From Cristatella mucedo (Eukaryota; Bryozoa; Phylactolaemata; Cristatellidae): a stretch of DNA of 64,000 nt. Within the stretch, counting starts at the first letter, position 1, and each line of letters starts with the position of its first letter. The notes beneath the pieces are model-generated. The model saw only the letters and a program-made list of their open reading frames with translations. It was not told the DNA's origin and made no database searches. The translations under genes were made by a program, and so were the position numbers. Below are positions 1,290 to 61,833 of this stretch, piece by piece. The stretch is taken from positions 6,858,501 through 6,922,500 of the forward strand of contig WPIO01000008.1 of NCBI GenBank assembly GCA_009760855.2. The letters run 5' to 3'.

Positions 1290-23771
<22,482 letters not shown>

Positions 23772-48639: not shown

Positions 48640-48713
48640 CCGGGTACGGACATTTCCCCTTGGGGTAGGACGTTTTCCCCCTGGAGTAGGGCATTTCTTT
48701 CCCTCCCGTAAGG
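48640..48713 (+). repeat. GGACATTTCCCC-type short repeats
   Basis: Three degenerate units (ACGGACATTTCCCCTTGG, TAGGACGTTTTCCCCCTGG, TAGGGCATTTC) next to a perfect inverted repeat. The same units form the ends of the insertion at 58460-59191. Confidence 0.8.
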
Positions 48714-58000: not shown

Positions 58001-58565
58001 TAAAATTATTATTACTAGTAGAACTAGTACTGTTTGGGCTTCGGGAGTTACAGTCGCCGCTCTGGGAAAGCGTCGTTGGTCGAAGCAAACAAGTGCAAAT
58101 TATAAGCAATATTCGTACTGTAATTGACTGAATTGATTAAATGAACTGACTTGGTGACTGAAATTTTGGATGCGTTGAAATTGGCTCTGGCATTTTTAGG
58201 TAGGAATTTTTTAGCGTGCCGTAGATCAGAATAGGATATGCCAATGTCTCGTTTCCTGACGCTTGTCGCATTGCCCTTGATCGTCGGCGACTGATGCAAA
58301 ACTGAGCAGCTCGTTTGGTCAGTCACAAACGGCGTAGCTGCCGCATAGCGACACTTCTGTCTGAGCTACACTGGCTCCTTATCAAACATCAAATCTATTT
58401 CAAGATACTCTGTCTGTTTTACAGGTTGCCTCGCATATCTGCACCAGCCTACCTATGCGGTTGTAGGACGTTTCCTTACTGGTGGACCCTAGGACATTCC
58501 CCCCCGGACATTTCCCCGCTGGGGTAGGACATTCCCCCTATGTTGATGAATATATAAATAAGAAT

Positions 58566-58607
<42 letters not shown>

Positions 58608-60506
58608 TCATGATCAAATGAAATTCACGCTTTATTAAAATAAAACCAACTCAGTATAATTAGAAGAATAATGGATGGATTGGAAGGATGGTCTCTAATG
58701 GAGCGAGCGGCGGCGGCGGTTGCAGCGGCAGCGGCGAGCTATACTGTTCGGTCCCGCGGAAGTTCGGTCCCGCTCGACGCCGCCAGGAACGTGTTCCTAG
58801 CCGTCAAAGTGGGCTTGCGCTACGGCGTGCCGCGCGTTCCTGCAACTGAGCGCTAAGCCTAAGAGGTCTACTGAGTATAAATCGAGCTCAAGAGATCTAG
58901 TTACGCCCTAATACACAGTAATTAAAGCGCGGAGTACGAGCAAGGGTGAATTTAGAAGGCGGAGGCGCAGCCCACCCTAAACCCTAAAACCTAAAACCTA
59001 AACACTAAACCCTAAAACCCTAAACACTACACGCTAAAATCCCAAAACCTTAAATTATAAATCCTAAATCCTAACAACCCTAAACCTTAAACTCTAAACC
59101 CTAAACACTAAAACCTAAACCCTAAACCATATACCGAGGGGGGAATGTCCTACCCCAGGGGGGAACGTCCAGGGGGAAATGTCCGTACCCCACCTATGCG
59201 ACCTGCTTGCTCCTGTGATGTGTTCTCGCATCGCCCGGTCCTCGACGTCTAGTTGTCTCGCTATGCTGCGTGCTAATTTGAAATCTGTTGGCGATAGAGC
59301 ACTAAGTTCGTTTTTCAGCCCCGGAAGTATGGAATTCGCTTCCGGCTACAGTCACTACCGGAATGACCGTGCATGGAATAAGTCTCAGTTAGAGACTCCT
59401 CCGTTCCATTCATCCCCTCGCTTTAGCGAACTTCTCTTTTTTGTTCCTCTTACCTGTGCACGATTCGGTAAATGCAACTAGCCAGAGGTCAAACCAACCG
59501 ATAGCCATAAGGGTCTTCACGTTTGCATTAGCATGCTGGCCTAAGCACGATACTGGATGCTTAATACCTTGCATGTCACTAATCCTTGGTTATTAATTTT
59601 TCTCTAGCGAGTTTAAAGCGTCTGGGTAGAAATTTAGATATCTCAGGGAGCTACAAAGCGACACGTTATAATAATTAAATCTTAGCATAAGCAATTCCTA
59701 TTTCTCGCGCAAGAGAAATTGAAGACTCACCTCCTCGTCCAAGCCGCTCTTGATGTATCCTCGTTCTCACACTAACTAGTTGTGAGGGAACTTGACTTTG
59801 CAGTCTGTGGAGACCGTACGAGGGCTCGCAGACTGCCTAAGCAGCCGCAAGCTCACGGGCGGTGGAAGGGCAGACGATGATTTGGCAGATGAATCGGCAG
59901 TCCTGCCCAAATCCATGCATTGGCAGCATCTGTGGGGACATCCCTCTATCACAAACTGCCGCCAGCTGTCGGGCGGGTTCGGAATGAACAATGGCTCGAC
60001 AGTGCAAGAAGCAACGCTTGCGTGAAATATAAGGGCTGCCGAAGGAGTACAACGAGAGGGGAGGGCTAGATCCCTCGACGCCAGCAGCCGTCTAGTGTGT
60101 GTAGACTGGGCTTGGGCGGCGTAGTTTGAAATCAAGGTTTTGGTGCTGGAGCCAGCAGACTTGTTGCTCGGTCGCGTTACCCGGCCCAACGACAGGTCGT
60201 TCGGAGGGCTGTCACTCTAGAGCTAAACGGTTTAATGGCATTGCGGAAAGGGCACAGTGCCATTCTTTTGTTGTTTTCGTTCATTCTCAATGGTACAATC
60301 CTTTTATTATCAATTTGAAGGCCACCATACAGGAATTCCGAGATCGTCAGTTTCCTGGAAGCATTGACTACGCCAACATGTTCGAGTTTTTAAGACGAGC
60401 AGATCTGAAGAACAGCGTCGAGCTGACTCGGCAGATTCACCCCCAGTTGCAGGACTTCAGTTTGTGGCTGAAAGACAACCGAGGCGCACTTGAGGCAGTG
60501 CTGTGA
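51295..60506 (+). CDS. NMRAL1: NMRAL1-like NmrA-family protein (4 exons, complete)
   Basis: Exons 51295-51541, 53708-53959, 56763-56959 and 60321-60506 (TGA), all GT-AG with phases 1, 1, 0, giving 293 residues (human NMRAL1 about 299). The family is an atypical short-chain dehydrogenase fold that senses NADPH and does not reduce a substrate. Matches to the remembered human protein: VAIGKSIGQAC for VKQGKLLADLA, HYDAKAEIFEHL for HFDGKGEVEEYF, LDMISLADAAECI for MDGMSVSDLGPVV, and FPGSIDYANMFEF for FPGARDLANMFRF. The first exon is diverged: FIDGDLGWK replaces the glycine-rich FGGTGAQGG loop, keeping two of three glycines and one residue shorter. NADP binding may be weak or lost. The ATG has G at -3 and +4. 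Confidence 0.88.
51542..52280. other. NMRAL1 intron 1, AT-rich unassigned part
   Basis: No repeat recognised before the microsatellite cluster at 52300. Confidence 0.4.
52300..52456 (+). repeat. (TA)n-(TG)n microsatellite
   Basis: TA at 52301-52342, TA/TG mix to 52382, then about 36 TG units to 52455, in NMRAL1 intron 1. Z-DNA-forming in principle. Confidence 0.95.
53104..53556 (-). other. Unrecognised minus-strand open frame in NMRAL1 intron 1
   Basis: The frame 53550-53104 runs 148 codons, and a second frame (53527-53345) contains LQYTFFCALGEGENEVAIIT, which looks protein-like. Switching frames near 53420 would keep plausible sequence (IGNIQSHAGGIWAIHGEEL). It may be a frameshifted pseudogene or chance. 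I do not recognise the family. Confidence 0.25.
54195..54490 (+). repeat. LINE family 2, 3' fragment
   Basis: CTTACGCAACGACGTCTGCT through TTTGTGGAGTTTCAGACGAA, matching the end of the family 2 copies. Confidence 0.8.
54493..54665 (+). repeat. tRNA-derived SINE (family A), full-length-like
   Basis: A-box TGGCTCACTAGGTAAGG, B-box GGGTTCAAATCTGC, GCCATTGCAAGCGGCGATG body, then the tail CTCTTCTGTTGCTATACAAA and GAGGCTGTTAAATCAGGTAG. It sits directly after a LINE family 2 end, as does the copy at 13270. Confidence 0.8.
54720..55010 (-). repeat. LINE family 1, 3' end
   Basis: (TAA)n at 54722-54743 and the 3' UTR block, cut at 55010 by the (GA)n tract at the place where ORF2 would continue (GGGAGGCAGTTCCAG). 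Confidence 0.85.
55012..55143 (+). repeat. (GA)n and GACAGA microsatellite
   Basis: About 40 GA units, then GACAGAGA hexamer/octamer repeats. It begins exactly at a CCAGAG in the LINE sequence, so it probably expanded from the LINE. Confidence 0.9.
55675..56150 (-). repeat. LINE family 1, old diverged copy
   Basis: ATAGCACCCTAAGATAACCA tail, then GGACAATTCACACGGATGTA and the ORF2 end (GGAACATACAAATTATAGGC). About a quarter of positions appear changed against the 17025 copy, so it is an older insertion. Confidence 0.7.
56160..56762. other. NMRAL1 intron 2, unassigned
   Basis: No element recognised. Plain AT-rich intron. Confidence 0.4.
56960..58260. other. NMRAL1 intron 3, left part, unassigned
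   Basis: No repeat or domain recognised. The short frames at 57438-57707 and 57840-58109 are not supported. Confidence 0.4.
58265..58450 (+). repeat. LINE ORF2 C-terminal fragment, split by a later insertion
   Basis: The plus strand encodes LLSELHWLLIKHQIYFKILC and RLPRISAPAYLC. It resumes after the insertion at 59192 with LCDLLAPVM and LRANLKSVGDRALS, ending about 59380. It belongs with LINE family 1 or its relative at 27590. Confidence 0.75.
58460..59191. mobile_element. 732-bp insertion with inverted GGACATTCCCC arrays and telomere-like core
   Basis: Flanked by 9-bp copies of ACCTATGCG (58451-58459 and 59192-59200), which interrupt a LINE reading frame that is otherwise continuous. The ends are inverted arrays of a TAGGACATTCCCCC/GGGGGAATGTCCTA unit (58464-58540 and 59138-59188). 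Inside are (CA)n(TA)n at 58565-58608, a GCGGCGGCGGTTGCAGCGGC patch and a CCCTAAA-like array. It carries no credible protein gene. It behaves as a non-autonomous DNA element of unknown superfamily. Confidence 0.8.
58976..59130 (+). repeat. Degenerate telomere-like (CCCTAAA)n array
   Basis: About 20 irregular units of CCCTAAA, CCTAAAA and ACACTAAA. The unit corresponds to TTTAGGG, not the usual animal TTAGGG. It lies inside the inserted element, so it need not mark an old chromosome end. Confidence 0.85.
59385..60320. other. NMRAL1 intron 3, right part, unassigned
   Basis: The part 59770-60190 is GC-richer with open frames on both strands and no recognised domain. The minus frame 60189-59776 is 137 codons. 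No exon of NMRAL1 is missing here. Confidence 0.4.
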
Positions 60507-60509
60507 GAT

Positions 60510-61833
<1,324 letters not shown>

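Follow-up and report, generated by a model that had tools for sequence, protein, structure and literature searches.

Inverted ends built of arrays of repeated units, in place of single terminal inverted repeats (TIRs), are found in several described transposons, and the TU elements of sea urchins are one such array-ended relative of the element considered here, an insertion of 733 bp in a stretch of 64,000 nucleotides (hereafter the window) from the bryozoan Cristatella mucedo (GenBank assembly GCA_009760855.2, contig WPIO01000008.1, positions 6,858,501 to 6,922,500 of the forward strand). The closest in design is Tm1 of the root-knot nematodes (Meloidogyne), which, in the part of its description available to us, has inverted arrays of about 14-bp repeats with the terminal motifs A1 and A2 outside the inverted repeat and a GA-rich motif, D, on the inward side of the arrays. 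Its target duplications are of 8-10 bp at 45 of 53 complete elements, and its coding member, which belongs to the Phantom subclass, has a FLYWCH and a MULE (Mutator-like element) domain (PMC3169594). Tetris, a foldback element of Drosophila, is also non-autonomous, with inverted tandem-repeat ends and 8-10 bp duplications, according to the sections of its description at hand, where no coding partner was found and a sea urchin foldback element is mentioned as well; its repeat unit of about 220 bp and its long flanking domain are unlike the short units that stand right behind a 7-bp terminus in the family described below (PMC4079207).

The C. mucedo family follows the plan of Tm1 as given in the available text: asymmetric 7-bp termini, GGA next to them, inverted arrays with a variable number of short repeats and duplications of 8-10 bp. 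The terminal motifs themselves look alike by eye, A1 being CGGTTAA in Tm1 and, in C. mucedo, GGTTGTA in this family and GGTTCTA in lineage B described below; on the other side the A2 motif CCTACCC of Tm1, which would read GGGTAGG inward if the orientation of its Table S1 applies, is by eye similar to the A2 motif GGGGTAC here. The elements described for Tm1 number 39 in one species and 22 in another, mostly short non-coding copies, whereas the ends of the present family occur in hundreds and its core holds a microsatellite and a CCCTAAA array (PMC3169594). The initial annotation of the locus knew no family with such a design; Tm1 is one. The element, in our view, is very probably a Tm1-like foldback: a DNA transposon of the cut-and-paste class, non-autonomous and belonging to the Mutator superfamily. 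It represents a new family of an already known design, by which no absence from the literature, Repbase or Dfam is claimed. The family has paired unlike ends, target duplications and a conserved core, and FLYWCH-MULE elements of the same anatomy reside in the same genome.

The insertion and the LINE frame that it splits

The insertion occupies positions 58459-59191 of the window, its start being set by the register of the family. It is flanked by two copies of ACCTATGCG, at 58451-58459 and 59192-59200, of which 58451-58458 and 59192-59199 make an 8-bp duplication when the register of the family is applied. The left copy closes with a G, the ninth base of ACCTATGCG, which is common to duplication and element, being also the first base of A1, and for this reason the window copy was counted among those with 8 bp. 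Thus the flanking repeat that was initially described as a 9-bp duplication around 732 bp is real, and its exact size is corrected to 8 bp around 733 bp. On the plus strand, the terminal motif A1 (GGTTGTA, 58459-58465; the window copy differs by one mismatch from the 14-mer GGTTGTAGGACATT counted below) is followed by the left array at 58466-58538 with units at 58466 (degenerate), 58492, 58506 and 58527. The right array, on the minus strand, spans 59138-59184 with inverted units at 59140, 59160 and 59174, and closes with the terminal motif A2 (GGGGTAC, minus strand, or GTACCCC on the plus strand, 59185-59191; counted as the 14-mer GGGGTACGGACATT). The array units have the form GGACATT(C/T)CCCC and lie in opposite orientation at the two ends, which agrees with the earlier view of inverted arrays instead of single TIRs. 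With at most one mismatch the unit was found seven times in the window, six times in the element and once in a further copy at 48648, compared with 0.42 expected and a maximum of 2 in shuffled windows. The foldback potential of the single strand (z -3.7, 20 shuffles) is due to the inverted arrays and adds no independent evidence.

Between the arrays, all on the plus strand, lie an (AC)n/(AT)n microsatellite that adjoins the A1 array (about 58566-58607), a non-coding core with similar stretches in other copies (58608-58973) and, towards A2, a degenerate array of CCCTAAA (58974-59128). Both repeat tracts, which had been noticed from the beginning, are features of the family.

The element interrupts a frame of a long interspersed nuclear element (LINE), of which the left part (58306-58459, plus strand) and the right part (59201-59478, plus strand) were recognised by joining of the flanks and by protein alignment, the similarity to LINE protein extending to about 59283. 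When the flanks are joined and one copy of ACCTATGCG is kept, an open frame of 144 amino acids spans the junction, and its first 79 residues, the junction included, align without gaps to the open reading frame at 17374-18402 of the same window (36/79 identical, E 4e-17), which itself matches RVT_1 (E 5e-16). This ungapped alignment means that the paralogous LINE holds the empty site, and both the split frame and the uninterrupted paralogue anticipated in the initial annotation are thereby found.

Copies, paired termini and target duplications

Across the genome of 572 Mb, the 11-base unit occurs 857 times compared with 79 for the reversed control, the exact A1 14-mer GGTTGTAGGACATT 245 times compared with 4, and the exact A2 14-mer GGGGTACGGACATT 207 times compared with 1. 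These counts against reversed controls, together with the window shuffles, rule out a chance repeat. Twenty loci were fetched near listed units, 13 with two close opposite units and 7 as further matches in list order, and in 18 of them plus-strand units stand at the left and minus-strand units at the right, the exceptions being L021 with outward-facing arrays and L026 without an array. Directly outside the arrays GGTTGTA (A1) and GGGGTAC (A2) recur, with variants in some copies, and GGA is found directly inside both motifs, since A1 and A2 both continue into GGACATT; the 14-mer search patterns already contained GGACATT, the motif having been noticed beforehand in the fetched copies.

How the ends are paired was judged on 100 of the 245 A1 places and 100 of the 207 A2 places. 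Among the places listed there are 14 inward-facing exact pairs within 10 kb, 570-1174 bp in length, and all 14 join an A1 with an A2; five more nearby pairs lie on the same strand, hence do not face each other. If the ends were interchangeable, about half of the pairs would be expected to be alike, and 14 unlike pairs out of 14 would have a probability of about 6 in 100,000. The two ends are therefore not interchangeable, as the constant A1/A2 pairing demonstrates. The number of units in the inverted arrays varies between ends as well as between copies. A profile of 229 units in 31 copies gave the consensus GGACATTYCCCC, and the commonest spacing between units is 14 (26 cases), spacings of 12-15 making up 58 of at least 135 counted and those of 18-28 being frequent too, in counts from which units that depart from the pattern at more than one base are missing.

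For target duplications 20 copies were compared. Seventeen came from the 20 fetched loci, and the others were the window copy, L059 and the copy that forms the outer element of L060. The criterion was at least 7 matching places out of 8 in the best of three registers, with the null scored alike. A recognisable duplication of 8 or 9 bp was found in 10 of the 20 copies and in none of 380 mismatched pairs. In a test set of 12 copies that had been fixed before reading, 8 of 12 have the duplication compared with 0 of 132 for the null, those without a recognisable one being L068, L069, L073 and L074. A duplication of the Tm1 type, 8-10 bp long, is accordingly seen in 10/20 and 8/12 copies. Of the 18 positives, 11 have a duplication of 8 bp and 7 one of 9 bp, L060 being ambiguous; both lengths fall within the 8-11 bp range stated for Mutator in the text available to us (PMC6446971). 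A search for more copies with such ends was proposed at the outset, and they are many genome-wide, with paired ends and duplications.

Two fetched loci deserve separate mention. At L015 (G000:C23:951814-960203) two near-identical family copies 4 kb apart share their flanking sequence, which probably reflects a local duplication of host DNA. At L021 (G000:C22:1926528-1932318) minus units are followed 1.7 kb on by plus units, beside perfect TTTAGGG units, and the outward arrays belong perhaps to two neighbouring elements or to a single rearranged one. The window itself holds a second, incomplete copy on the minus strand, missed at first reading, at 48641 to about 49700, with an A2 end at 48641 and similarity that ends within a (TA)n tract; no A1 end was found for this copy. 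Past this tract, at about 49701, another repeat begins whose start, as we take it, resembles pogo/Tigger. Elsewhere in the window, a 128-bp tandem duplication and then a long CT-rich array occupy 60484-61263.

The non-coding core and its CCCTAAA array

A dinucleotide tract, mostly near A1, is present in 16 of 19 copies (12 bp or more) and in 10 of the 12 test copies (10 bp or more). In copies oriented from A1 to A2, the A2 side holds four or more CCCTAA in 10/19 copies and 8/12 test copies; L017 has one CCCTAA only, on the A1 side. The same tracts recur in other copies, which rules out that the core repeats are accidents of the window copy. Each of the 12 test copies can be aligned with the window element, though L071 only along 122 bp, and the longest stop-to-stop frame among them has 134 codons. 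The core alignment took in 21 of the 31 copies. Divergence from the majority sequence is 5-14% in 18 of them and 16-30% in the other three, and for the window copy it amounts to 7.3% over 355 columns. When 26 MULE proteins (24 of the lineages A and B described below and two others) were compared with 19 copies, no match was found. Taken with the further copies, their paired ends and their duplications, this bears out the original description of a non-autonomous element with array-type inverted ends.

It is possible, though doubtful, that the CCCTAAA array derives from telomere DNA of the host that the family captured, carried to interstitial sites in an orientation fixed with respect to its ends, and lengthened there. 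Four exact tandem TTTAGGG give 3712 overlapping matches genome-wide and none in the control, and there is no exact match in the genome for TTAGGG x4 or TTAGG x5. The orientation is constant, for in copies read from A1 to A2 TTAGGG occurs in 0/31 and at least one CCCTAA in 23/31. Among four array loci that were read, L083 lies in a family copy with units adjoining, L081 apparently does so by core similarity, and at L082 a TTTAGGG array, its G-rich strand pointing outward, closes the contig C43. Against the capture of telomere DNA speak the array of the fourth locus, L080, which is without similarity to the family, and the fact that only one contig end of this kind was seen, at which the contig may break inside a family copy. 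TTTAGGG would be an unusual telomere repeat for an animal, if the end of C43 is a telomere.

FLYWCH-MULE relatives, classification and proposed mechanism

With the profile PF10551, 59 MULE-domain matches were detected in the genome, of which 30 loci were returned and the sequence around the match was read for 38, among them these 30, L059-L061 and L062-L067. Units of the type GGACAAAATGTCC stand beside the transposase in 17 of the 30 loci (lineage A) and units of the type GGACAATTCGGAGC in 11 (lineage B); L055 and L057 have neither. Both ends were located for 13/17 members of lineage A, with the termini GGTACTA and GTGACA and, in 12/13, a C before GTGACA, and for 10/11 members of lineage B (L034 with five mismatches), with the termini GGTTCTA and GGTAACC. 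Duplications were recognised in 8/13 of lineage A compared with 3/156 for the null, and in 6/10 of lineage B compared with 2/90, among the six being L033 and L045, whose flanks are identical and whose duplications probably go back to one event. The exact 18-base end of lineage B occurs 26 times genome-wide and 0 times in the control. Domain scans of six transposase proteins gave FLYWCH with MULE in four and MULE alone in two, and a search of the PDB sequences with one transposase gave nothing up to E 0.1. The two lineages share 37% protein identity over 332 amino acids. Both resemble the short family in having short termini that differ from each other, GGACA-type units in inverted arrays and duplications of 8-9 bp, and differ from it in other unit sequences, in a length of about 1.5-2.5 kb and in coding for MULE proteins with FLYWCH.

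A lineage-B MULE at L060 (G000:C69:2500-9500, about 3371-4911) is inserted in a family copy, and in this nest both duplications are visible, that of the inserted MULE being 9 bp with one mismatch. The MULE loci L064 and L067 have inverted repeats of another motif (CTACGACAATTGACCTG-like) and are a possible third array-ended lineage, while L062, L063 and L066 show no inverted repeat at the threshold used, the protein of L063 looking like lineage A.

Several points weigh against placing the family with Tm1 in the Mutator superfamily. Inside GGACATTCCCC ends no transposase was found among the 59 MULE matches, with sequence read around 38, in a search for the coding partner that used MULE matches by locus and by proximity to listed ends and included no genome-wide search for FLYWCH. 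The initial annotation asked for an autonomous relative, and lineages A and B carry a FLYWCH-MULE transposase beside ends of parallel build, with units of their own. Judged on the 200 of 452 A1 and A2 places that were listed, only two of the 59 matches lie within 8 kb of such an end, one being the lineage-B MULE nested in a family copy and the other lying outside a neighbouring copy. As 19 copies gave no MULE match, they are not simple internal deletions of the sampled MULEs. Duplications were not recognisable in 10/20 and 4/12 copies, L060 had its right boundary placed manually, and L015, L021 and L026 were excluded from the first count for having paired ends only with 3-4 mismatches each. 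The repeat unit is CGATTCAGTATCCGC in Tm1 and GGACATTYCCCC here, and the spacing of units is less regular than in Tm1 as far as its description reaches, so that we speak of a Tm1-like family, not of Tm1 itself (PMC3169594).

Could the family come from another superfamily, with its foldback ends arisen by convergence? Duplications of 8 bp are also compatible with hAT and P, for which no transposase search was made, and the 8-bp register is that of 11 of the 18 duplications recognised. Galileo, in the part of its description available, combines foldback ends with a P-type transposase (PMC3688188), and no transposase of the family's own was found among the MULE matches. However, 7 of the 18 duplications are 9 bp long, and FLYWCH-MULE elements of the same genome have similar termini and similar GGACA-type units. 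An origin of this kind appears improbable to us. Slightly less probable still is a derivation from Rehavkus. This Mutator-related group shares with the family a duplication class of 9 bp, and a minisatellite stands in front of one of its TIRs, comparable to the CCCTAAA minisatellite that many copies here have just inside one end; the Rehavkus transposase carries a PHD finger, and the available text mentions neither asymmetric 7-bp termini nor asymmetric array-type ends (PMC6446971). The array-ended transposases scanned here have FLYWCH (4/6) or no second Pfam domain (2/6), with PHD in 0/6, although the Rehavkus transposase was not itself searched for. That the element is no transposon, merely repeat-rich DNA with minisatellites grown by slippage inside a LINE, is hardly credible, for in spite of abundant simple repeats in core and ends, satellite or slippage alone is refuted by the empty paralogous LINE site and the target duplications, as well as by termini that are unlike and paired and by cores that are homologous between unlinked loci.

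For the Tm1-like family of very probable Mutator affiliation, we infer that it is probably mobilised by FLYWCH-MULE transposases. A transposase of this type, supplied in trans, would recognise the GGACATTYCCCC units, which are putative binding sites and each of which would be a weak one. Many unit sites per end may then provide affinity and synapsis, with specificity reached through number because each unit is short, as argued for Galileo, a P-type foldback element with several transposase binding sites located in its repeated TIRs, in the part of its description at hand (PMC3688188). The two unlike 7-bp termini would mark the two cleavage points, and staggered cutting of the target would give rise to the duplication of 8-9 bp. 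The variation of the arrays, seen inside single copies and from copy to copy, may come from gain and loss of units by slippage or unequal exchange.

Should the CCCTAAA array prove to be telomeric, this family would also carry telomere repeats to interstitial sites. Regarding the design as a whole, the Tm1 plan is common in this genome to two divergent FLYWCH-MULE lineages and a derived short family with ends in hundreds, and the genome permits a direct test of the units as binding sites and of the joint change of unit and transposase.

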